Translations under genes and position numbers: made by a program | Notes under the pieces: generated by a model | What the model was told of the DNA's origin: nothing | What the model saw: only the letters and a program-made list of their open reading frames with translations | Database searches by the model: none | NCBI GenBank assembly: GCA_001596135.1 | Contig: CP014773.1 | Span: forward strand, 1,240,001-1,304,000 | Direction of reading: 5' to 3' | Origin: Mucilaginibacter sp. PAMC 26640 | GTDB lineage: Bacteria > Bacteroidota > Bacteroidia > Sphingobacteriales > Sphingobacteriaceae | DNA: 64,000 bases | Shown here: piece after piece, positions 1,527 through 26,652 of the stretch | How the letters are laid out: each line of letters starts with the position of its first letter | How positions within the stretch are numbered: the first letter of the stretch is position 1

Positions 1527-2921
1527 ATGGGAAACACCGCAGCAGCGTTTTTGGCAGCCTCCGAAGAGAAGGCATTCGAGATGGACCACCGGCGGATCAT
1601 CAATCATAACATAGATAAGTATGATACGGCTGTTGTTCGTGGTCAATCGCGGATGATCAACCTGGATAATTCCAAAAAAAAGGGCCATGCCATTAAATGG
1701 AAAGTAATGGAAAATCTGGATAAATTCCTGCCGGAATTCGAAGCCAATTTCCAAAAGCGCGGAGGTAAGGTGATCTGGGCCAATGATGCTGAAGAAGCCA
1801 ACCGCGAGATCCTTAGCATTATTCAAAAAGCCAACGCCAAAACGGTTATCAAATCCAAATCAATGGTTACCGAAGAAATTCAGTTGAATGAATTTTTAGA
1901 AAGCAACCAAATTGAATCATTGGAAAGCGACCTGGGCGAATATATTGTACAATTGCTTGGCCAAAAGCCATATCATATTGTTACCCCGGCCATGCACCTC
2001 TCCAAAGAGGATATTGCCAAGCTATTTAATGAAAAATTTGGCACACCGCCGGATGCCACGCCAGAGCAGCTTACCCAAAAAGCCCGTGAGCTGTTGCGCG
2101 AAAAATATTTAAAGGCCGATGTTGGCGTAACCGGGGCCAATTTCATCATTGCCGATACCGGCAGCATTGCCATCAGCGAGAATGAAGGCAATGCCAGGCT
2201 CACTACATCGTTCCCCAAGATCCACATCACGGTTGTAGGGATAGAAAAGCTAATTCCATCCATTACCGATCTCGATCTCTTTTGGCCAATGCTGGCAACC
2301 CACGGCACGGGGCAAAACCTTACGGTATATAACACCATACTGAGCGGCCCGCGCCAGCCTGACGAAACTGATGGCCCCGAAGAAATGTACGTAATACTGC
2401 TGGATAACGGCCGCACCAACCTGCTGGCTCAAAAAGACCAGCGCCAGGGTTTATACTGCATTCGTTGCGGCGCTTGCCTTAACGTTTGCCCGGTTTATAA
2501 AAACATTGGCGGCCATACGTATGATACGCCATACAGCGGGCCTATAGGATCTGTAATCACCCCGCACATGCGCGGCATGGAAGAATTTAAACACCTCAGT
2601 TACGCATCTACCCTGTGCGGCAAATGTACCGAGGTGTGCCCGGTTAAAATAGATATCCATAAAATGCTGCTGCTTAACCGCCGCGATGCGGTTACAGAAA
2701 ATCTGAGCCCCAAATTAGAACAATGGGGCTGGGCCCTCTGGAAAAAGGGAATGCTTAAACGCAATTTTACCGATTTTTTTGGCGGCAAAGTGAAGAACTT
2801 CATGCTGAAAACATTCTTTAAAAAAGCCTGGGGCAATTTTAAGGAAATGCCGGTAGTGGCTGATAAATCGTTCAGTAAACAATGGATAGAACGGGATAAG
2901 GCCGACAAACAAAACGACTAA
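1527..2921 (+). CDS. lutB: LutB-like LUD-domain iron-sulfur protein (lactate utilization)
   Basis: The 464-residue protein has an N-terminal LUD domain (about 60-300) and a C-terminal pair of [4Fe-4S] motifs, CIRCGACLNVCP and CGKCTEVCPVKID. In the LutABC complex, LutB is the iron-sulfur electron carrier for oxidation of L-lactate to pyruvate. A TTG at 1503 is in frame, but the ATG at 1527 gives the usual LutB-like start (MGNTAAAFLA). No lutA or lutC is next to it, which is unusual for a Lut operon; the partners may be elsewhere, or the protein may serve another dehydrogenase. It is translationally coupled by a TAATG overlap to the reductase gene downstream. Confidence 0.88.
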   Translation: MGNTAAAFLAASEEKAFEMDHRRIINHNIDKYDTAVVRGQSRMINLDNSKKKGHAIKWKVMENLDKFLPEFEANFQKRGGKVIWANDAEEANREILSIIQKANAKTVIKSKSMVTEEIQLNEFLESNQIESLESDLGEYIVQLLGQKPYHIVTPAMHLSKEDIAKLFNEKFGTPPDATPEQLTQKARELLREKYLKADVGVTGANFIIADTGSIAISENEGNARLTTSFPKIHITVVGIEKLIPSITDLDLFWPMLATHGTGQNLTVYNTILSGPRQPDETDGPEEMYVILLDNGRTNLLAQKDQRQGLYCIRCGACLNVCPVYKNIGGHTYDTPYSGPIGSVITPHMRGMEEFKHLSYASTLCGKCTEVCPVKIDIHKMLLLNRRDAVTENLSPKLEQWGWALWKKGMLKRNFTDFFGGKVKNFMLKTFFKKAWGNFKEMPVVADKSFSKQWIERDKADKQND

Positions 2922-3466
2922 TGCGTAAGATCATACTGAATGTGGCCGTGAGCCTGGATGGGTTTATTGAAGGGCCCGCCGGCGACTACGATTGGTGCCT
3001 AACCGACCAGGATTATGGAATGGCTGCTTTTTTTGAAGAAACAGATGCCATATTTATCGGCCGCAAAAGTTATGAGCTGATTGGTGCGCAAACCGATAGC
3101 TTCCCGGGCAAAAAGATGTATGTTTTCTCCGATACGTTACAGCCGGGTAAAAACGAGGATGTGGAGGTGATCCCCTCTGCCAGGTTTGACCATGCAGTTA
3201 ATGGCATTGTGAACGAAGCGGGGAAAAGTATCTGGCTTTTTGGCGGGGCCGGTTTAACAACAGCCTTTATCAACAAGAATCTTATCGGGGAGTTGCTGCT
3301 TGCTATCCACCCGGTTATTTTAGGCAGTGGCAAACGTTTGTTTGACGAGCTAAAAGAACAGGCAGATCTGCAGTTTGTATCGCAGCAGGTATATAGTACA
3401 GGGCTGGTACAAGTACGCTATGCGGTTAAGCCAAAGTTCGATATGGAAATGCTTAAACTTTTATAG
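2921..3466 (+). CDS. Dihydrofolate reductase-like / RibD C-terminal domain protein
   Basis: The 181-residue protein starts MRKIILNVAVSLDGFIEG and contains FIGRKSYELIG and LFGGAGLTTAF, the nucleotide-binding signatures of the RibD C-terminal/DHFR fold (COG0262). Members are NAD(P)H-dependent reductases; many of these stand-alone paralogues have no known substrate and are not true folate reductases. The start ATG overlaps the lutB stop (TAATG), so the two are translationally coupled and probably co-transcribed. Whether the reductase has anything to do with lactate oxidation is not shown by the sequence. Confidence 0.85.
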   Translation: MRKIILNVAVSLDGFIEGPAGDYDWCLTDQDYGMAAFFEETDAIFIGRKSYELIGAQTDSFPGKKMYVFSDTLQPGKNEDVEVIPSARFDHAVNGIVNEAGKSIWLFGGAGLTTAFINKNLIGELLLAIHPVILGSGKRLFDELKEQADLQFVSQQVYSTGLVQVRYAVKPKFDMEMLKLL

Positions 3467-3522
3467 TCGCATTTATCCCGCCACTGCTACCGTTACTGGC
3501 AATTCTCCGCATTGCAAAGCGG

Positions 3523-4377
3523 TTAATGTTTATTGCCGAAGCCAAATTCCCTGTAGGTATTGGGTAACTCGTCCTGGTTGCTAAACGCGAATGAGAAGGT
3601 AGACACCCAGGTTTCAAAGTCGGCATCATTTTTTACAGAAGGCTCTATGCGGATGCAGCGCAGCATGTATATCCCGTCGCGGCTCGGGCTAAAAAACACC
3701 TGTCCGTTGGCATCGGTAGCCAAAAGTTGCGGATGCACCGTGCCTGATGCCGTTTTTATGTACAAAAACACGTTGCTGGTTTTTAAGGGTTTACCTTTAA
3801 AATAAACTATCGCGGTAATATCATCGCCATAGCTCTTTTTATAGGGGTTTTGCTTCAACACAATTTCCAGTTCGCTCCCCATTACTTTGCTGTAAGCATT
3901 ACCGCCACCGTTATCCACATTAACAAGGGTTTTTAAATAGTAGCGATATTTTTCAACCAGGTTAAGTCTGGTATCGTCCTTTACCTTTTCCGCTAAGTTA
4001 TCATACCCCTGTTTGCTCAAATAGGCTACAAAATCTTCGTGAGGCAACTCATTCATCTCATCTTTTGTGTTCATCTCTACCATCACCATACCGCTGCCAT
4101 TTACGGTATAATCCAAAACCGGGGTAGCGCTGTCTTTAGCAACCTTCAGCAGGTCGGTCATCTTGCTGCCTTCGTAAATATTGAATTTGGTTGTTTTTTT
4201 GGAATTGTAGCGGCTTTCGTCTTCTTTGTTCAGGTTGTCTCCGCTCAGCAGGTGTACGCTCATTTTATCGCCTTTATGCAGGTAGAAACTTTCGGGCAAT
4301 AAAAAACTGTCGGGTGCGAAGGCGGTAAGGCCCAAAGCGACAAATATTACGAACGATATAGCATATAGGTTCTTCAT
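3523..4377 (-). CDS. DUF4198-type secreted protein
   Basis: The 284-residue protein has an N-terminal signal peptide (MKNLYAISFVIFVALGLTAFA) and a beta-rich body with the DUF4198-like opening PESFYLHKGDKMSVHLLSGD and a later stretch in which a putative carrier domain (GKPLKTSNVFLYIKT... DANGQVFFSPSRDG) resembles carboxypeptidase-regulatory-like folds. DUF4198 proteins are periplasmic and often lie near metal transport genes, but no transporter is adjacent here. A promoter-like TATGTTTG lies 20 nt before the start, at 4397-4404. Specific function is unknown. Confidence 0.75.
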   Translation of the reverse strand: MKNLYAISFVIFVALGLTAFAPDSFLLPESFYLHKGDKMSVHLLSGDNLNKEDESRYNSKKTTKFNIYEGSKMTDLLKVAKDSATPVLDYTVNGSGMVMVEMNTKDEMNELPHEDFVAYLSKQGYDNLAEKVKDDTRLNLVEKYRYYLKTLVNVDNGGGNAYSKVMGSELEIVLKQNPYKKSYGDDITAIVYFKGKPLKTSNVFLYIKTASGTVHPQLLATDANGQVFFSPSRDGIYMLRCIRIEPSVKNDADFETWVSTFSFAFSNQDELPNTYREFGFGNKH

Positions 4378-4396
4378 AGCAAAAAGATGGATTGCT

Positions 4397-4404
4397 CAAA
4401 CATA
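4397..4404 (-). promoter_or_regulatory. -7 box (TATGTTTG) for the DUF4198 gene
   Basis: Read on the minus strand the sequence is TATGTTTG, matching the Bacteroidota TAnnTTTG element, about 20 nt upstream of the ATG at 4377. I found no clear -33 TTTG at the right spacing. Confidence 0.45.
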
Positions 4405-4435
4405 CAAAGTTTTAAAAACTTCTTAGCTTTACCAC

Positions 4436-6412
4436 ATGACTTTCGACCGTAAACATATCGATAATGACGGTTTAATAACTTTTTACAAAAAATTATTATT
4501 GCCCCGGTTAGTTGAAGAGAAGATGCTGATCCTGTTGCGGCAGGGCAGAATTGGCAAATGGTTTTCGGGGATCGGGCAGGAGGCAATTGCCGTAGGCAGT
4601 ACGCTGGCTATGGAGGCCGACGAATACATTTTACCTATGCACCGTAACCTGGGTGTGTTTACCGCGCGCAATGTTCCAATCTCCCGTTTAATGGCGCAAT
4701 GGCAGGGTAAGCTGTCTGGTTTTACCCGCGGTCGCGACCGTTCTTTCCATTTCGGCACACAAGAATTTAAGATCATCGGGATGATCTCTCACCTGGGCCC
4801 GCAAATGGCGCTGGCTGATGGTATTGCCCTTGCCGATAAACTCAGCGGGAAGCAAAAAGTTACCCTGGTGTATTGCGGCGAGGGGGCAACCAGTGAAGGG
4901 GATTTCCACGAAGCCATTAATATTGCCGCCGTTTGGGATCTGCCCGTAATATTCCTGATCGAGAATAATGGCTACGGCCTCTCCACCCCCACCAAAGAAC
5001 AATACCGTTGCGAATCTATCTCAGACCGGGCCATTGGTTACGGTATCGAGGGCCGGAAGATTGATGGCAACAACATCCTGGAGGTTTACCACACGGTAAA
5101 TCAGCTGGCAACAGCAATGCGCCAAAACCCCCGCCCGGTTTTACTGGAATGCATCACGTTCAGGATGCGCGGGCATGAGGAAGCCTCGGGCACCAAATAC
5201 GTTCCGCAGGAACTGTTAGCGGAATGGCAAAAAAAGGACCCGCTGGACAACTTTGAAAAATACCTGCTGAGCGAACAAGTATTGCGGCCGGAATGGGTGC
5301 CTTACCTGCGCAATGAGTTCACCAAGCTGATAGATGCAGAGATAGAAAAGGTTTTCAGCGAGCCGGACATCATTCCCCACCTGCAAACCGAACTGGATAG
5401 CATGTACAGGATGTTTAACATCCCTAAGCTGCCGCCTTATGAAGCTTTAACAAACAAGCGATACATAGATGCCATTAGCGATGGCCTTCGCCAGGGCATG
5501 CGCAAACACCCCAACCTGGTGGTGATGGGGCAGGACATTGCCGAATACGGCGGTGCCTTTAAAATAACCCAGGGATTTTTAGAAGAGTTTGGCAAAGAGC
5601 GGGTACGCAATACGCCCATTTGCGAATCGGGCATTGTAGGCACGGCCATGGGCCTTGCATTGAACGGCTACAAGGCAGTTGTAGAAATGCAGTTTGCCGA
5701 TTTTGTAACCTGCGCATTCAACCAGATCATTAACAACCTGGCCAAAACTTATTACCGCTGGGGCCAGGCGGTAGATGTAGTGATCAGGATGCCGGCAGGC
5801 GGCGGTACCGGTGCAGGGCCGTTCCACTCGCAAACCAACGAAGCCTGGTTCACCAAAACGCCCGGCTTAAAAGTGGTTTACCCCGCCTTCCCTGATGATG
5901 CCAAAGGTTTGCTGATGGCCGCCATTGCCGACCCAAACCCGGTGATGTATTTTGAACATAAGGCCTTATACCGCAGCATTTCCGGCAACGTGCCGGATGA
6001 GGATTATTATGTGGAGATCGGCAAGGCTAATATAGTTCGCCCGGGTACAAAGGCCAGCATTGTTACTTATGGCATGGGGGTGCACTGGGCCATGGAATAT
6101 GCGGAGAAACATCCCGAACATGCTATAGAGATCCTCGACCTGCGCAGTTTGCAACCCTGGGACAAGGAAGCCGTGGTAAAAACGGTGAAGAAAACTTCCA
6201 GAGTACTGGTTCTGCATGAAGATACCCTAACCAGCGGCTTTGGCGCCGAAATAGCCGCATACATCGGCGAACATTCTTTTAAATACCTGGAGGCACCGGT
6301 AATGCGCTGCGCCAGCCTGGATACCGCCATCCCAATGAATAAAGACCTGGAAGACCAGTTCCTGGCCAAATCAAGGCTGGAAGAGTGCATGGATGCTTTA
6401 TTGAAATTTTAG
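4436..6412 (+). CDS. Thiamine-diphosphate dehydrogenase E1, fused alpha and beta subunits (branched-chain 2-oxo acid type)
   Basis: The 658-residue protein joins an E1-alpha domain (about 10-320) to an E1-beta transketolase-like domain (about 335-655). The alpha half has the ThDP/Mg motif GEGATSEGDFHEAIN ending in ENN (about 148-180). The beta half has QDIAEYGGAFKITQGF, PICESGIVG and MPAGGGTGAGPFHSQ. The fused arrangement is typical of the branched-chain 2-oxoacid dehydrogenase E1 in Bacteroidota; the enzyme decarboxylates a 2-oxo acid and passes the acyl group to a lipoylated E2. E2 and E3 genes are not in the window, so substrate specificity (branched-chain rather than pyruvate) is inferred from family architecture only. 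Confidence 0.9.
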   Translation: MTFDRKHIDNDGLITFYKKLLLPRLVEEKMLILLRQGRIGKWFSGIGQEAIAVGSTLAMEADEYILPMHRNLGVFTARNVPISRLMAQWQGKLSGFTRGRDRSFHFGTQEFKIIGMISHLGPQMALADGIALADKLSGKQKVTLVYCGEGATSEGDFHEAINIAAVWDLPVIFLIENNGYGLSTPTKEQYRCESISDRAIGYGIEGRKIDGNNILEVYHTVNQLATAMRQNPRPVLLECITFRMRGHEEASGTKYVPQELLAEWQKKDPLDNFEKYLLSEQVLRPEWVPYLRNEFTKLIDAEIEKVFSEPDIIPHLQTELDSMYRMFNIPKLPPYEALTNKRYIDAISDGLRQGMRKHPNLVVMGQDIAEYGGAFKITQGFLEEFGKERVRNTPICESGIVGTAMGLALNGYKAVVEMQFADFVTCAFNQIINNLAKTYYRWGQAVDVVIRMPAGGGTGAGPFHSQTNEAWFTKTPGLKVVYPAFPDDAKGLLMAAIADPNPVMYFEHKALYRSISGNVPDEDYYVEIGKANIVRPGTKASIVTYGMGVHWAMEYAEKHPEHAIEILDLRSLQPWDKEAVVKTVKKTSRVLVLHEDTLTSGFGAEIAAYIGEHSFKYLEAPVMRCASLDTAIPMNKDLEDQFLAKSRLEECMDALLKF

Positions 6413-6426
6413 CATATCTTAGTGTT

Positions 6427-6681
6427 ATGGTTACCCTTGAAGAAATATATAAGCAAGAGCCTATAGAAAAAGGTATAGATGAAGATGCCGGCTTAGGTGC
6501 CGAAGCTATGCTTAAGGCAGGTATCCCAATTTTTTACCGGGATGAATTATACCCCGAAACATTGAAAGGCGAGTTATTTGTTAAGGAGTATACAAGTGGG
6601 GCAAAGTTTATTGTACGCAAGCACCTCACCGAAGATCTCCGTTTAATAGAAGAAACAATCAGAGCTATAAATCCATTATAA
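6427..6681 (+). CDS. Small protein paired with a zeta-like kinase, candidate antitoxin
   Basis: The 84-residue product starts MVTLEEIYKQEPIEKGIDED and ends in a helix (LTEDLRLIEETIRAINPL). I chose the ATG at 6427 because the open frame upstream runs into the end of the E1 gene. The middle has a short beta-like segment (GELFVKEYTSGAKFIVRKH). I do not recognise a named family. Its TAA overlaps the ATG of the P-loop kinase (TAATG), a tight coupling typical of antitoxin-toxin pairs with the antitoxin first. An antitoxin role is inference from that arrangement alone. Confidence 0.7.
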   Translation: MVTLEEIYKQEPIEKGIDEDAGLGAEAMLKAGIPIFYRDELYPETLKGELFVKEYTSGAKFIVRKHLTEDLRLIEETIRAINPL

Positions 6682-7277
6682 TGCCGTTATTAGTAGTTGT
6701 TGGAGGGCCCAATGGTTCCGGTAAAACAACATTGACTGCTCAATTGATAAAACGCGGAAGGATAAAGACTGCGGTCATTAATCCGGATGATATCGCCTTA
6801 ACTGAATTTGGAAGTTATAAATTTCATATTCCTGCTTCTAGGGAAGCATTGCAAAGGCGAAAAAATGCGCTCGTTTCAAAATCCGATGTGGCATTCGAAA
6901 CTACTTTTTCAGGAAAATCTGAAATTGCCGATATCCGGGCGGCTCACAAAGGTGGCTATAGAACTATTTTATATTTTGTTGCTTTGGAATCTCTAATAGA
7001 CAATATAATAAGAGTAGAGGAACGGGCACATAATAATGGCCACAAAGTTGAATTGGAAGACATGATAAGGCGATATAATAAAATTAAACTCGCCCTGCAA
7101 AATCATATTGCGTTGTTTAACAGAGCCTACCTGTTTGACAATTCAGGGACCAGACGTTCACGTGTAGCCATATTTGAACACGGCAATTTAGTATGGCTTA
7201 ATACGAAGCATGAAAACCACCCTTTTTACCAGCACTTATTCAGCCCTCTACCAACTCCACCTCCGCTACAGGGCTAA
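6681..7277 (+). CDS. Zeta-toxin-like P-loop kinase (COG4185 type)
   Basis: The 198-residue protein has a Walker A motif GGPNGSGKT at residues 8-16, an NPDD motif near 34-37, an FETT motif with Glu73, and a later RVEERAHNNGHKVELED stretch supplying Arg residues, in the order seen in zeta/COG4185 ATPases. Zeta toxins phosphorylate UDP-sugar peptidoglycan precursors; the substrate of this chromosomal subfamily is generally not established. It is coupled by TAATG to the 84-aa gene. The last 12 codons (a Pro-rich SPLPTPPPLQG tail) run antisense into the 3' end of the SprT-like gene, so the C terminus may be a late extension. Confidence 0.82.
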   Translation: MPLLVVVGGPNGSGKTTLTAQLIKRGRIKTAVINPDDIALTEFGSYKFHIPASREALQRRKNALVSKSDVAFETTFSGKSEIADIRAAHKGGYRTILYFVALESLIDNIIRVEERAHNNGHKVELEDMIRRYNKIKLALQNHIALFNRAYLFDNSGTRRSRVAIFEHGNLVWLNTKHENHPFYQHLFSPLPTPPPLQG

Positions 7278-7851
7278 ACAGGTAAACCCGTTTGCTGCTG
7301 ATCTCAATACATTTGTAACGTTTGCGCAACTTTTCTTCTTTGCGAAATACCCGGCCATCTTTCAATTTAAAAACCGATTGTAACGGCAGTTTTTCTACCG
7401 TATGCACAGATTCCTTAACCGGGTCATATTTGCGCAGGGAACGGTAAAGTGTTAAGTCCGAACAGCTGGAAGCGGCCGGATTGTTCAAATAGCTCGTGAT
7501 GGCTTGTTTAATATCCGGCGGGAAAACATCCTTTTCAAAAAAGGGCTGCATCATTTTTTTGAAGTTTGTTTTCCACTCAATGCCATGGGGTTTTGCTTTT
7601 TGCTGATGCTCGTTCCAAGTATGGAGGTGCGCAAATTCATGCACGGTGGTTACCAAAAAAGCGTAAGGGTTTAAATCGAAATTTACAGAGATGCGGTGCC
7701 CTTTACCATCAAAAGGTGCCCGATAATCGCCAAACTTAGTACCGCGGTTTCGCGAGATCTTGAACTCGCATTTAAAATAATCGATCCAGCGGCCTATTAA
7801 AGGTGCCGCTTCCTTCGGCAAATATTTTTCGAGAATTTGTACTTTATCCAA
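7240..7851 (-). CDS. SprT-like zinc metalloprotein
   Basis: The 203-residue protein carries HEFAH at residues 71-75 and a further His at 89 (HGIEWK), the zinc site of the SprT-like domain. Eukaryotic Spartan of this fold degrades DNA-protein crosslinks; bacterial SprT-like proteins are poorly characterised. A basic C-terminal half (KLKDGRVFRKEEKLRKRYKC) could form a small beta domain. There is no signal peptide, so it is probably cytoplasmic. It converges on the zeta-like gene with a 38-bp 3' overlap. Confidence 0.85.
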   Translation of the reverse strand: MDKVQILEKYLPKEAAPLIGRWIDYFKCEFKISRNRGTKFGDYRAPFDGKGHRISVNFDLNPYAFLVTTVHEFAHLHTWNEHQQKAKPHGIEWKTNFKKMMQPFFEKDVFPPDIKQAITSYLNNPAASSCSDLTLYRSLRKYDPVKESVHTVEKLPLQSVFKLKDGRVFRKEEKLRKRYKCIEISSKRVYLFSPVAEVELVEG

Positions 7852-7941
7852 TGTTTACCTCTGTATCAAAGATAGTTTATTGCGTTTAAAGGTGGAAACA
7901 GAATGGCAAAAGGTTAGGAACAGATGACAGATTAAAGTTTG

Positions 7942-10056
7942 CTACCGCAGCAAATGGTAAACCAAAAACGCTGCTCCGTAAGCAAGGGCGGTCATATACG
8001 CGAATTGCGCGGCGGGCCAGCGCCAGTCTTTTGTTTCACGGTAAACTACCGCTACCGTGCTGGCACACTGCATAGCGAAGGCGTAAAACATCATTAATGA
8101 AAAGGCTACCGCCAGGGTAAAAACAGGTTGCCCGGTTGCCGGATTTTTTGCATGGCGCATTTTATCCTGTACCGAATCTATTTTATCGGCATCGCCCTCT
8201 ACACTGTAAATAGTGGCCATGGTGCCTACAAATACTTCCCGGGCGGCAAAGGATGTAATGAGCGCTATCCCTATCTTCCAATCGAAGCCTAATGGCCGGA
8301 TAGCAGGTTCGATGGCATGCCCTAATACCCCGGCGTAGGAGTTCTCCAGCTTTTCTGAGGATACCATGCGCTTCAGGTCATCCGGCTTAACGGTGGTGGT
8401 ATAGGTTTTTGCACTATATTTTTGCTCGATCTTTTCGAAACGGTTCCCCGGCCCGTACGACGACAGAACCCATAAGATCACCGATACCGCTATGATCACT
8501 TTGCCTGCCTCAAACACAAAGGTTTTAGCCCGCTCATACATCGAAAATAAAACATTGTTCCAGCGTGGCATACGGTAAACGGGCAGCTCCATAATGAAGT
8601 AGCCACGTTCGCGGGCTTTTAGCAGGTGTTTCATCACCCAGGCTACAATTACTGCTGATATCAGGCTCAGCACATACATACCGGTTAATGCAAGGCCCTG
8701 CAAATTAAAAATCCACCAGATGTTACGGCTGGGTACCACCAGGGCGATAAGTAAAGTATAAACCGGTAACCGGGCCGAGCAGGCCACCAGCGGCGTAACC
8801 ATAATGGTGATCATCCGGTCCTTCCAGTTCTCAATAGTGCGGGTACTCATGATAGATGGCACCGCACAGGCAAAACCGCCTATCAGCGGCACTACCGATT
8901 TTCCGTTAAGGCCAACCTTACGCATGATCTTATCCATCATAAACGTAACCCGCGACATATAGCCGGTATCTTCCAGTATAGAAATAAAAGCAAATAAAAT
9001 AGCAATCTGCGGGATAAACACCATCACACCACTTAACCCGGCAACAACGCCGTCTATCAGCAGATCGGCCAGTGGCCCTCCCGGTAAAACACTACGAAGC
9101 CCACCCTCTATCCAGATAAAAAGATCTTCAATGAGCGACATAGGGTACGCCGACCAGGCAAAAATGGCCTGGAACATAAACAGCAGGATACCCATGAAAA
9201 TGATAAAGCCAAATACTTTATGGGTAAGTACCTTATCTATCTTATTGCTGTGGCTTTCGTCATATGCGGTTACCGGTGTTTTAACCGTATCGTAAAGTAC
9301 ATCATTAATATAGTTGTACCGCGCAATGGTTTCCGTGGCTTGTGCCTTTTGCGAATGGAAGGTGTACTCTTTCTCAAGTTCCTCTATGCGGCTGCTTTGG
9401 GCAGGCGTTAAAAATTTAAGTGTTTCGTGCTGGTGTGCAAGCTGAAGTGCAAAGTAAGGGTTATCGATGTTTAATTCAGCACTTATGGCTGCTATCAGCC
9501 CGGGAGCTATCCCCTTTACATCTATGCTTTCCAGCTGCAAGGCAAACTTGTTAGCAAAGGAGATTCCCTCCTTCAATTCAGCTATTCCTTCCAGCCGCCT
9601 TGCCGAAACCGGAATAATCGGTACCCCCAGCTTTTGGGAGAGCAAATTGATATCGATGCTGATCCCCGCTTTTTTGGCAAGGTCGCTCATATTTAAAGCG
9701 ATGATCACCGGGATCTTCAGATCGGCAACCTGGCTGTAGAGTAAAAGATTTCGTTTAAGGTTTGTTGCATCCAGGATCACCACTACCAGATCGGGAGCAA
9801 GCTCACCGCCCTTTTCGGCAAGTACCGAAAACACGATCGATTCGTCCTGACTTTTTGGGTATAAGCTGTATGTACCCGGCAGATCAATAATTTCCGCACG
9901 GCGGCCATCAGGCAGTTGGGAATAACCTACTTTTTTATCAACAGTAACACCAGGAAAATTTCCTATTTTTTGATTGAGTCCGGTTAATGCGTTAAATAAC
10001 GTGGATTTACCGGTATTGGGATTGCCTACTAATGCTACTCTGATATCAGCTTTCAA
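7942..10056 (-). CDS. feoB: Ferrous iron transport protein B (FeoB)
   Basis: The 704-residue inner-membrane protein has an N-terminal G domain with G1 GNPNTGKS (residues 11-18), G3 DLPG (58-61) and G4 NMSD (122-125), a helical linker, and a polytopic membrane region with two Gate-like repeats (GLSGVMVFIPQIAILF and a CSARLPVYTLLI core). It imports Fe(II) across the inner membrane. It lies 15 nt downstream of feoA in the same operon, transcribed from the promoter upstream of feoA. Length and motifs look intact. Confidence 0.96.
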   Translation of the reverse strand: MKADIRVALVGNPNTGKSTLFNALTGLNQKIGNFPGVTVDKKVGYSQLPDGRRAEIIDLPGTYSLYPKSQDESIVFSVLAEKGGELAPDLVVVILDATNLKRNLLLYSQVADLKIPVIIALNMSDLAKKAGISIDINLLSQKLGVPIIPVSARRLEGIAELKEGISFANKFALQLESIDVKGIAPGLIAAISAELNIDNPYFALQLAHQHETLKFLTPAQSSRIEELEKEYTFHSQKAQATETIARYNYINDVLYDTVKTPVTAYDESHSNKIDKVLTHKVFGFIIFMGILLFMFQAIFAWSAYPMSLIEDLFIWIEGGLRSVLPGGPLADLLIDGVVAGLSGVMVFIPQIAILFAFISILEDTGYMSRVTFMMDKIMRKVGLNGKSVVPLIGGFACAVPSIMSTRTIENWKDRMITIMVTPLVACSARLPVYTLLIALVVPSRNIWWIFNLQGLALTGMYVLSLISAVIVAWVMKHLLKARERGYFIMELPVYRMPRWNNVLFSMYERAKTFVFEAGKVIIAVSVILWVLSSYGPGNRFEKIEQKYSAKTYTTTVKPDDLKRMVSSEKLENSYAGVLGHAIEPAIRPLGFDWKIGIALITSFAAREVFVGTMATIYSVEGDADKIDSVQDKMRHAKNPATGQPVFTLAVAFSLMMFYAFAMQCASTVAVVYRETKDWRWPAAQFAYMTALAYGAAFLVYHLLR

Positions 10057-23408: not shown

Positions 23409-24071
23409 TTACAAGTCCACCAAAATATTCTCTCCAAATTTTTGCGATACCGTTGTGTTGGCGCCATCGGCAATGCTGATCACCAGTGAACTGTCATACT
23501 GAATCTTTTCTACCAGCTGCACCATGGTGCCGATGTTGATATCAAGCTTTTGCAGGTATTGCAAAAAAGCACTGCTGGTGTCTTTAACGGCAGAGATACG
23601 GCAATGGGTTCCCGGCTTTAAATCAGCCAGGGTAGTTGATGATCTTTTGGCCATTTTACCGTTAGCTTTCGGGATAGGATCACCATGCGGATCGTACTCC
23701 GGGAAGCCCAGGAATTTATCCAGCCTGTCGGCCAGGGATGTATCTTTAATATGCTCCAACTCTTCGGCAATATCATGGATCTCATCCCAATGGTAGCCCA
23801 GTTTTTCTAATAGAAACACCTCCCAAAGCCGGTGGCGGCGAACAATCAGCACGGCATCTTTCTGCCCCTGGGTAGTAAGTTCAACGCCTTTCTTTTTATC
23901 ATATGCTATCAATTGCTTATCCGTTAGCTTGCGGATCATATCCACAACCGAGGCCGGGTTGTTACCCAACGATTCGGCAATGGCCGTAGGCGTTATTTTC
24001 TCACCCCGATCCTGCCAAAGGCGATAAATACATTTTAAATAGTTCTCCTCAGATAGCGTATGCATATTCAT
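23409..24071 (-). CDS. MntR/DtxR-family metal-dependent repressor
   Basis: The 220-residue protein has a winged helix-turn-helix DNA-binding domain (about 1-70), an iron-dependent repressor dimerisation domain (about 70-140, with HDIAEELEHI and FPEYDPHGDPIP) and a C-terminal FeoA/SH3-like domain (about 148-220). Such proteins sense Mn2+ or Fe2+ and repress metal uptake genes when metal is plentiful. It is divergent from a TonB-dependent receptor, with a 15-bp perfect inverted repeat between them, so it probably regulates that receptor and itself. The start could also be the next ATG (MHTLSEEN). Confidence 0.9.
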   Translation of the reverse strand: MNMHTLSEENYLKCIYRLWQDRGEKITPTAIAESLGNNPASVVDMIRKLTDKQLIAYDKKKGVELTTQGQKDAVLIVRRHRLWEVFLLEKLGYHWDEIHDIAEELEHIKDTSLADRLDKFLGFPEYDPHGDPIPKANGKMAKRSSTTLADLKPGTHCRISAVKDTSSAFLQYLQKLDINIGTMVQLVEKIQYDSSLVISIADGANTTVSQKFGENILVDL

Positions 24072-24084
24072 TTATTGGGTATTA

Positions 24085-24092
24085 CAAACATA
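24085..24092 (-). promoter_or_regulatory. -7 box (TATGTTTG) for the MntR-type regulator gene
   Basis: TATGTTTG on the minus strand, about 14 nt upstream of the ATG at 24071, matches TAnnTTTG. Its -33 region would overlap the inverted repeat at 24109-24144. Confidence 0.5.
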
Positions 24093-24108: not shown

Positions 24109-24144
24109 TATAAATATAATTAGTCTGCCCTAATTATATTTATA
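24109..24144. promoter_or_regulatory. Candidate MntR/DtxR operator, 15-bp perfect inverted repeat
   Basis: Arms of 15 nt (24109-24123 and 24130-24144) are perfectly complementary around a 6-nt centre TCTGCC. The core TTAG-N6-CTAA is reminiscent of DtxR/IdeR boxes (TTAGGnnAGnCTAA type). It sits between divergent promoters, overlapping the -33 region of both, where a repressor would act. Confidence 0.7.
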
Positions 24145-24165: not shown

Positions 24166-24173
24166 TACGTTTG
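24166..24173 (+). promoter_or_regulatory. -7 box (TACGTTTG) for the TonB-dependent receptor
   Basis: TACGTTTG lies 16 nt before the ATG at 24190 and matches TAnnTTTG. A TTTG at 24148-24151 is the only upstream candidate, with a short 14-nt spacing. The operator ends 21 nt upstream. Confidence 0.5.
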
Positions 24174-24189
24174 TACAATAAATAATATC

Positions 24190-26652
24190 ATGCGTAACCT
24201 CCTCCTGGCTATATTGTTATTTTTCATCGCCGGAAATTCTTTTGCACAAACCGGCAGCCTGAGCGGAAAAATCACCGCAGGCAACAGCCCCCTGGCCTAT
24301 GGCACAATCACCCTGGCCGGCACCCGGCATGGCACCACCGCCAATGAGCAGGGCTTTTACGAGATCAAAAATCTGGCTCCCGGTGAATACCTTGCTCTGT
24401 TTTCCCGCCTGGGGTATTATTCCGAACGAATTAAAGTAACCATCGTTGCCGGGCAGGCAGCCACCCGTTCTGCAGATCTTAAGGAGGGTAGTTCAGCCCT
24501 GAGCGAGGTAGTGGTTACCGGGGTATCGCGCGCAACACAGCTCCGTAGTAACCCCGTGCCTATTGTAGTGCTGACTAAAAAGGAGATCGACCAAAACGTG
24601 AACAATAATATAATAGATGCCATTATTAAAGGGGTGCCGGGCGTTACAGCGGTTACTACGGGGCCAAATATCTCCAAGCCTTTTATCCGTGGACTGGGGT
24701 ACAACCGTGTGTTAACCCTGTATGACGGCATTCGCCAGGAGGGGCAGCAATGGGGCGATGAGCATGGCATCGAGATAGATCAGTATGGCATTTCCCGTGC
24801 AGAAGTGATCAAAGGCCCCGCCAGTTTAACCTACGGATCGGACGCCCTGGCAGGGGTGATCAACCTTATTCCATATATTCCGAATGGAGAGGACGGGAAG
24901 CTGAAAGGTGACTGGGTAACCGATTATCATACCAATAACGGTTTAATCGCTTCGTCACTGGGTTTATCGTACAAAAAAAACGACTGGAAGTATGCGTTCC
25001 GGGCAAGCGGCAAAATGGCCCGCGATTACCAAAACACGATAGATGGCCCTGTTTATAATTCGGGTTTCCGCGAATACATTGTTTCCGGCATGCTTCGTAC
25101 TGATAAAAAATGGGGTTATTCACAACTGGCGGCAACGGTTTACAACAATCAGCAGGAGATCCCCGATGGCAGCCGCGATTCGCTTACCCGCAAATTTACC
25201 ATGCAGGTTGCAGAAAGTGCTGCCGATGATATTAAAGACCGGCCAGTGGTTTCTGCAGCCCGGCTCAGTTCATATGCCATTAGTCCGTTGTATCAGCATA
25301 TTCAACATTACCGGATCTATAATAAAAACGAGTTTAAGCTGGGCGATGGCATCCTGGACCTGTCAATCGGTGGGCAGCAAAGCATAAGGCGCGAATACAA
25401 CCACCCAACCCTGCCGCAACAGGCCGGGCTATACGTTACCCTGAACACTTTTAATTACGATCTGCGCTACAGTCCGCCCTTATTTGCCGGGATAGAAACC
25501 TCGTTTGGCATCAACGGCATTTATCAAACTAACCGCAGCAAGGCCGCAACCGATTTCCCTATCCCGGATTACAACCTGTTTGATGCAGGCGGCTTTTTCT
25601 TCGCCAAAAAAACGCTTGGCAAAGTGGATATATCAGGCGGCATCCGGTACGATACCCGTAACATTCGTTGGGAAGATTTTTATGTAGGCCCAAATGCCGC
25701 CAATGGCTTCGAACAAAAAGCAATACCTGGTTCACCAGGCGCCAAACTGCAGTTCCCCAATTTTGATTATCACTATCATGGCGTTTCAGGAAGCCTTGGC
25801 CTCACTTATAACCTGAGCGAACGCTTATTGCTAAAAGCCAATATCGCCCGCGGTTACCGGGCACCAAACATTACCGAAATTGGCAGCAACGGCCTTGATC
25901 CGGGTGCACATATTGTTTACCTCGGCAACCGCAGCTTTGTGCCGGAATTTAACTTACAGGAAGACCTGGGCTTCATTGCATACCTGAAGGATGCCGATAT
26001 CATGGTGGAGCTATTTAATAACCAGGTGCAAAACTTTATCTACCAATCCCGGCTGGACGATGCCAACGGCAACCCGGTAATTATTGTTGCGGGGAACAGC
26101 ACCTACCAATACCAGCAATCTAAAGCCAGGCTCTACGGCGCAGAATTCAGCCTGAACCTGCATCCCCATGGTATCAAATGGTTATCGCTCAACAACAGCC
26201 TGGCCTGGGTAACGGGGATCAACCAAAACGAGGCACTTATTAAACAATCTGGCGGGGCGGCCAAATACTTACCCTTTATCCCGCCCCTGCACCTGCGCTC
26301 GCAGCTGATGCTAAAACTCCAGGGCACCTATGGCATATTCAGTAAAATCTATTTACGGGCCGAGGCAGATGCTTATGCAACTCAAAACAATTTTTATGCC
26401 CTTAACAATACCGAAACAGCAACACCCGGCTACACGCTTATCAATACCGGTATTGGTGCAACGCTTACCCGCAAGGGCGGCAAGCCCTTTTGCGAGCTCT
26501 TTTTACAGGCCGATAATTTGTTTGATGTGGCATATCAATCTAACCTGAACCGTTTAAAATATTTTGAATATTATAATAGTTCGCCGAATGGCCGCCTGGG
26601 CATCTACAATATTGGCCGTAATTTAAGTTTCAAGGTGATTGTGCCTTTCTAA
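24190..26652 (+). CDS. TonB-dependent outer-membrane receptor, probably for a metal
   Basis: The 820-residue protein has a signal peptide, a carboxypeptidase-regulatory-like domain (about 22-105), a plug domain (about 115-225, with VITKKEI-like VLTKKEIDQNVNNNIIDA and GIRQEGQQWGDEHG) and a beta-barrel to the terminal Phe (LSFKVIVPF). These receptors import metal chelates or other ligands using TonB energy. The His/Glu-rich plug segment GDEHGIEID and the neighbouring MntR-type regulator suggest a metal such as Mn, Zn or Fe, but the ligand is not proven. No SusD partner is present, unlike glycan receptors. Confidence 0.9.
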   Translation: MRNLLLAILLFFIAGNSFAQTGSLSGKITAGNSPLAYGTITLAGTRHGTTANEQGFYEIKNLAPGEYLALFSRLGYYSERIKVTIVAGQAATRSADLKEGSSALSEVVVTGVSRATQLRSNPVPIVVLTKKEIDQNVNNNIIDAIIKGVPGVTAVTTGPNISKPFIRGLGYNRVLTLYDGIRQEGQQWGDEHGIEIDQYGISRAEVIKGPASLTYGSDALAGVINLIPYIPNGEDGKLKGDWVTDYHTNNGLIASSLGLSYKKNDWKYAFRASGKMARDYQNTIDGPVYNSGFREYIVSGMLRTDKKWGYSQLAATVYNNQQEIPDGSRDSLTRKFTMQVAESAADDIKDRPVVSAARLSSYAISPLYQHIQHYRIYNKNEFKLGDGILDLSIGGQQSIRREYNHPTLPQQAGLYVTLNTFNYDLRYSPPLFAGIETSFGINGIYQTNRSKAATDFPIPDYNLFDAGGFFFAKKTLGKVDISGGIRYDTRNIRWEDFYVGPNAANGFEQKAIPGSPGAKLQFPNFDYHYHGVSGSLGLTYNLSERLLLKANIARGYRAPNITEIGSNGLDPGAHIVYLGNRSFVPEFNLQEDLGFIAYLKDADIMVELFNNQVQNFIYQSRLDDANGNPVIIVAGNSTYQYQQSKARLYGAEFSLNLHPHGIKWLSLNNSLAWVTGINQNEALIKQSGGAAKYLPFIPPLHLRSQLMLKLQGTYGIFSKIYLRAEADAYATQNNFYALNNTETATPGYTLINTGIGATLTRKGGKPFCELFLQADNLFDVAYQSNLNRLKYFEYYNSSPNGRLGIYNIGRNLSFKVIVPF

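Follow-up and report, generated by a model that had tools for sequence, protein, structure and literature searches.

Our analysis concerns a 64-kb stretch of the Mucilaginibacter sp. PAMC 26640 genome (hereafter the window), in which genes for a metalloregulator and an outer-membrane receptor diverge from either side of a long palindrome. The features of this locus, and of a second one elsewhere in the genome, are listed below.

23409..24071, minus strand: DtxR-family metalloregulator, 220 aa, with HTH (PF01325), metal-binding/dimerisation (PF02742) and FeoA (PF04023) domains
24085..24092, minus strand: -7 element TATGTTTG (TAnnTTTG) of the regulator, 34 nt from the operator centre
24109..24144, no strand: predicted operator, a 15-bp perfect inverted repeat with spacer TCTGCC and flank type A..T
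24118-24135: flank-typed form AATTAG-N6-CTAATT
24120-24133: DtxR-type core TTAG-N6-CTAA, at the centre of the 24109-24144 palindrome
24166..24173, plus strand: -7 element TACGTTTG (TAnnTTTG) of the receptor, 39 nt from the operator centre
24190..26652, plus strand: TonB-dependent receptor, 820 aa, with a CarboxypepD_reg-like domain, plug and beta-barrel
C2:3763946-3766506, same genome: DtxR paralog-NRAMP pair

A sequence-only reading of this DNA had described a 15-bp perfect inverted repeat, and the two arms (24109-24123, TATAAATATAATTAG, and 24130-24144, CTAATTATATTTATA) are indeed 100% complementary across the 6-bp spacer TCTGCC. When the 118-bp intergenic region (21% G+C) was dinucleotide-shuffled, a 15-bp arm was obtained in 0/5000 shuffles, with a maximum of 13. 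The palindrome is also the longest short-spacer inverted repeat of the 64-kb window, and its 24-bp form (TATAATTAG-N6-CTAATTATA) exists as a single exact copy genome-wide, the runners-up having 3 mismatches. The bare core TTAG-N6-CTAA, taken alone, is of little value as a sign of an operator, since about 1.5 chance copies are expected in 64 kb. Among 53 distinct sites chosen for having the core, the symmetry of the arms extends past it in most. An Rfam search of the palindrome locus returned no match and no sign of a known riboswitch.

The single-dimer operator of IdeR/DtxR is 14 bp long with the consensus TTAGGNNNNCCTAA (PMC8464063). The window site shares this length and matches the TTAG..CTAA core exactly, so that the resemblance to DtxR-family sites noticed earlier extends to the 14-bp geometry. 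The inner G/C of the consensus is present in one half only (TTAGTCTGCCCTAA), where a C lies beside the core (CCTAA), while the other half has a T (TTAGT); some relatives have it in both halves, e.g. TTAGGTATACCTAA in L030. Unlike the IdeR/DtxR operator, the window site has extended arms rich in A+T, and the base immediately outside its core is family-specific (A, T or G). Bacteroidota-type -7 boxes (TAnnTTTG) flank the palindrome divergently, as had been proposed, at 24166-24173 (+) and 24085-24092 (-). In most relatives tested the receptor-side box is 39 nt from the centre and the regulator-side box 30-40 nt, and a few have no -7 match on the receptor side. Since the operator arms extend about 18 nt out from the centre, a bound protein would adjoin the -33 regions. 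We predict, with near certainty, that the DtxR-family regulator encoded next to it uses the palindrome as its operator at the promoter of the receptor.

The regulator scores above the cut-offs for the DtxR-family HTH (PF01325, 50.3 bits; cut-off 26) and metal-binding/dimerisation domain (PF02742, 105.1 bits; cut-off 27), and its C-terminal FeoA domain (PF04023, residues 147-219, 46.8 bits; cut-off 23) is that of a long-form DtxR. It falls short of the curated NCBIfam MntR cut-offs (NF047407, 138.5/350 bits; NF003025, 62.6/138 bits; NF008273, 39.7/153 bits). Residues H80, E84, H99, E103, E106 and H107 together with N10 are invariant in regulator groups 1 and 2, and N10 is found in 72/72 sequences of these groups at the Asp position of MntR (D8) and SloR (D7). 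At this position of the primary metal site, MntR and SloR have Asp and DtxR has Met. The regulator does not have the MntR-type metal site of an Asp plus a Glu at the MntR E99 position, as Asn10 replaces the Asp (the references to MntR D8, SloR D7 and MntR E99 draw in part on alignments). We identified no characterised protein with the regulator's ligand set (N10 with H80, E84, H99, E103, E106 and H107), and because Asn10 replaces the Asp or Met of the primary site, its metal preference is unreadable from known proteins. Since the curated MntR cut-offs and one metal ligand fail, we file the regulator as a DtxR-family member that is MntR-like in its predicted role only. The earlier label of an MntR-type regulator therefore survives in the DtxR-family domains, but not in the MntR cut-offs or the Asp ligand.

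Thirty orthologous regulator loci were taken from the genus, 21 with a divergent adjoining receptor and nine without. The palindrome was present at 21/21 divergent loci, as exact AATTAG-N6-CTAATT in 20 and with a single change in one. At the nine loci without an adjoining receptor, no palindrome was found in the 250 bp before the regulator; in six of these genomes (G012, G016, G019, G026, G030 and G055) the receptor ortholog is unlinked and has the palindrome about 45-85 bp before it. In all, 30 of the 31 Mucilaginibacter genomes that have the regulator contain the exact operator, placed either before the receptor or before a barrel gene in its stead. Because the palindrome stays with the receptor when the regulator is unlinked, the operator appears to belong to the receptor, and autocontrol of the regulator would be a by-product of the divergent layout and not universal. 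The idea that a repressor blocks both promoters thus fits the shared divergent site, but not the unlinked regulator promoters, which have no such site. The proposed tie between the regulator and an outer-membrane receptor is supported, as the site is kept between both genes and follows the receptor to unlinked loci; the loss of conservation in related species, named as a counter-argument, was not seen.

Regulator and receptor orthologs also co-occur among 121 Mucilaginibacter genomes (both in 62, regulator only in 7, receptor only in 4, neither in 48), with a Fisher p of 4e-21 when genomes are treated as independent and shared ancestry is ignored. Of the seven regulator-only genomes, G250 has the operator in the gap that separates the regulator from a di-haem oxidoreductase (DHOR) operon, and G259 has it before a more distant receptor. 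In the remaining five (G004, G038 and G042, the source of the other three loci without an adjoining receptor, plus G020 and G257), which are receptor-less, the operator precedes a gene for a 277-aa PF13557 barrel that forms one operon with the regulator, and orthologs of this barrel (65-100% identity) were found in exactly these five of the 121 genomes. We regard the PF13557 barrel as a candidate outer-membrane Mn channel. Loci with a PF13557 ('Phenol_MetA_deg') barrel were recorded at L128:4451-5284, L129, L130, L131, L233 and L298:8533-9399.

Beyond the genus, a scan of named Bacteroidota genomes gave 80 receptor loci, 62 of them with at least 50% identity. TTAG-N6-CTAA was located within 330 bp upstream of 49 of these 62 receptor orthologs, while four other palindromic patterns gave 0-4 matches on the same set and spacers of 5 and 7 gave 0 and 1, respectively. 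Operator-positive receptor loci include those of Pedobacter, Chitinophaga and Hymenobacter. In Hymenobacter, mntH immediately precedes the receptor on the same strand at 14/14 loci examined, with an operator at the start of mntH in 14/14 and a second one before the receptor in 9/14; after the receptor, 11/14 have a homolog of the PF13557 barrel (27-35% identity).

Within its own genome, AATTAG-N6-CTAATT occurs in four copies versus two for a reversed control. The copies at C2:889030 (before an alpha/beta hydrolase gene) and C2:2184414 (between ribosomal protein genes) seem to be chance matches, and the copy at C2:1105185-1105202, about 30 bp before katG, is missing from the katG promoters of 25/25 relatives and is either chance or species-specific. 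The regulon therefore looks very small. The window also contains a feoB-like gene (named by eye; 7942-10056, minus strand), near which no TTAG-N6-CTAA site was found, and for this reason the circuit looks separate from ferrous iron uptake at this locus, as the sequence-only reading had suggested in calling it different from feoAB.

Mucilaginibacter has a second DtxR paralog, 45% identical to the regulator and translationally coupled to an NRAMP transporter. The NRAMP partner in our genome (P0003, outside the window) scores 567.4 bits against the cut-off of 430 for NCBIfam MntH (NF001923). Unexpectedly, P0003 (C2:3763946-3765859) has a C-terminal universal stress protein domain (PF00582) fused to the MntH-type NRAMP. 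About 36 bp before the start of the mntH operon lies a TTAG-N6-CTAA of the type T-TTAG-N6-CTAA-A, and the receptor operator of the same genome is of the type A-TTAG-N6-CTAA-T. The T..A type was found at the mntH-coupled paralog in 30/30 genomes examined (27/27 plus three more). In six genomes without the mntH-coupled paralog, the mntH promoter carries A..T in five and a mixed form in one (G059); in three genomes without the group-1 regulator, the operator of the receptor ortholog (60-64% identity) is T..A in 3/3. These six and three genomes with a missing paralog may represent few independent events, perhaps one or two. Going by these sites, the operator type at the receptor and at mntH matches the paralog that the genome has, an argument for both genes answering the same signal, most likely Mn(II).

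A third form, G-TTAG-N6-CTAA-C, accompanies a third group of regulators found in Chitinophagaceae and G097, in one case beside mntH. Placed on a tree built from 42 regulators, the operator form requires three changes, which is the minimum possible, compared with a mean of 16 for shuffled data. In and before the recognition helix, A-form regulators mostly read NNPASVVDM, T-form regulators TKASSVTDM or TKAASVTDM, and G-form regulators IKMPTVTSM or LKPATANDM-like. The flank type thus appears to track the regulator clade. Three flank types tied to regulator clades would offer a natural experiment in how duplicated repressors separate their targets and how operators are recoded when a copy is lost. 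The G..C form was seen at receptor promoters with further DtxR groups (L302, L317, L324, L328, L330 and L231); in L330 the receptor is transcribed away from the regulator and mntH.

The receptor itself has a plug (PF07715, 78.9 bits) and barrel (PF00593, 105.4 bits) that place it among the TonB-dependent receptors. It was modelled with AlphaFold from 86 sequences (pLDDT 88.6), replacing a version built from 23 close orthologs (pLDDT 64.8). The closest solved folds are ZnuD (Zn), ChuA/ShuA (heme), BtuB and OprC (Cu), with Z of 34-38 against ChuA, ZnuD, BtuB and OprC; ZnuD is first in Foldseek and third by VIA-align. Because these folds rank too near each other, the model would leave the substrate undecided. 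Although ZnuD of Neisseria and ChuA/ShuA are the nearest, the identities are 16-20%, and the receptor is far under the curated cut-offs of the Zn (ZnuD, NF038289, 48.8/950 bits) and heme/hemoglobin (TIGR01785, 154/316.85 bits) families. Conserved acidic and His residues include D190, E191 and H192 in the plug and H405.

The operator, promoter elements, gene families, conservation, co-distribution and flank code are sequence-level results, from which we infer binding, repression, metal and substrate. In a metal-replete cell, a metal-loaded dimer, most likely with Mn(II), would bind TTAG-N6-CTAA and mask the -33 regions of both divergent promoters, so that the receptor gene and, at this locus, the regulator gene are switched off. 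Upon metal shortage, the repressor would be released and the receptor made. The receptor would then carry a Mn(II)-containing substrate over the outer membrane, and MntH would move it over the inner membrane; in our genome, MntH would be under its own DtxR paralog with its own operator flank type. As a whole, the evidence suggests that a TonB receptor, a probable importer of manganese or a manganese complex that works with MntH, is silenced by a DtxR-family repressor in what is probably its Mn(II)-loaded form. Manganese is likewise the probable metal sensed, a reading that rests on the mntH link and not on the metal site, because the N10-bearing ligand set matches no characterised protein that we identified. 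Import of a Mn-containing substrate by the receptor is predicted with reasonable, slightly lower confidence. The initial suggestion of a Mn, Fe or Zn uptake circuit is upheld as metal uptake and narrowed towards Mn, since mntH has the same operator type. By model and family scores, the best named families and nearest folds of the receptor are heme and Zn receptors rather than Mn receptors, and this counts against Mn.

The same circuit could instead serve iron, with the regulator as a DtxR/IdeR-like iron sensor and the receptor importing heme or an iron complex. Among curated receptor families, those for heme/hemoglobin score best (TIGR01785, 154/317 bits), ChuA/ShuA are among the closest folds, the operator core is that of the IdeR/DtxR site, and the operator occurs at a DHOR operon in a few genomes. 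However, the conserved partner under the same operator is mntH and no heme or siderophore system, and no site accompanies the feoB-like gene of the window. Position 103 of the regulator is Glu, as in Mn-type sensors, whereas DtxR has Cys there. We consider iron unlikely.

Zinc, with the receptor as a ZnuD-like importer in the same circuit, is very unlikely. ZnuD is the top Foldseek match and third by VIA-align, and a Chitinophaga receptor adjoins genes that, by eye, encode a COG0523-type GTPase and a Fur-family protein. Yet TonB receptors fold alike, the VIA-align scores of ZnuD, ChuA, BtuB and OprC are close, and the receptor reaches 48.8 of the 950 bits set for NCBIfam ZnuD; moreover, no Zn transporter was seen under the same operator, whereas mntH is. 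That the palindrome is a chance AT-rich repeat, a bidirectional terminator or a hairpin with no operator role is hardly credible, for even though the intergenic region is 79% A+T and about 1.5 bare cores per 64 kb arise by chance, the 15-bp arm was reached in 0/5000 shuffles, the arms are symmetric outside the core in most of the 53 core-selected sites, the distance to the promoters is constant, the palindrome is 5' of both start codons, and its conservation at the same place in several genera already contradicts this explanation.

The manganese circuit has a parallel in Stenotrophomonas maltophilia, described in 2026, where MntR represses a TonB receptor (the TBDR-pTFP locus) and mntH, with de-repression in an mntR deletion, and where the promoter of the receptor contains the operator, 75 bp ahead of the start (PMC13217887). 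This is the closest functional precedent. The two systems are alike in having an MntR-type regulator near a TonB receptor and an operator in the promoter, and the S. maltophilia regulon includes mntH. In contrast, the S. maltophilia receptor belongs to a CQNC-plug family with a thioredoxin-fold partner; no CQNC motif was found in the 820-aa translation of our receptor, which has a CarboxypepD_reg-like N-terminal domain. The circuit described here also lies in another phylum and is split over two DtxR paralogs with different operator flanks. TonB-dependent outer-membrane uptake of Mn(II) is known from MnoT/TseM of Burkholderia thailandensis, and MnoP of Bradyrhizobium is an outer-membrane Mn channel (PMC9334652). 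Compared by description, MnoT is similar in the idea of TonB-dependent Mn uptake, but its partner is a T6SS-secreted Mn-binding protein, and none was seen here. MnoP is alike in the channel idea only, which bears on the putative function of the PF13557 barrel of the five genomes.

An MntR-controlled TonB receptor is therefore known already, and what is unusual here is that the operator forms follow the regulator paralogs. In the open-access literature (most subscription papers and regulon databases being outside the search), we found no earlier description of such a circuit in Bacteroidota, and this is probably an apparently undescribed manganese-uptake circuit of soil Bacteroidota. Manganese entry through the Gram-negative outer membrane is largely open, with a handful of cases (MnoP, MnoT, OmpU and the 2026 Stenotrophomonas locus). 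Our locus adds a strong Mn-receptor candidate from a different phylum; its regulation lends itself to a clear test, and the soil bacteria that have it can be cultured. We lean towards a broader proposal, namely a widespread Bacteroidota Mn system of a TonB Mn receptor, MntH and sometimes a PF13557 barrel. Its paralogous MntR-like repressors would read operators that differ in one symmetrical base pair outside TTAG-N6-CTAA (A, T or G); targets would be reassigned by that base upon paralog loss, and the barrel could replace the receptor under the same operator.

Several further gene arrangements were observed. The operator also precedes a DHOR (PF06537) operon that includes a small secreted protein and a porin-like protein (L234:1723-4695, L236:1098-2850, L238:2321-5259 and L135:92-2982); this operon occurs with the group-1 regulator in G250, with a 52-53% paralog in G249 and G184, and alone in G036. 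In G022 (L132:538-5805), the operator is followed, on the side opposite the group-1 regulator, by an apparent operon of the receptor, a distant DtxR paralog and a second mntH. In Chitinophaga L288 and L293 (~2700-8400), the receptor lies downstream of genes named by eye as a COG0523-type GTPase, a MerC-like membrane protein and a Fur-family regulator, possibly a zinc context. Lastly, most of the genus has a 46-48% receptor paralog whose upstream regions (L075-L089) are without such an operator; it is often preceded by a small secreted protein with a C-x-x-C-D-x-M-H-H-type motif and possibly belongs to another metal system.
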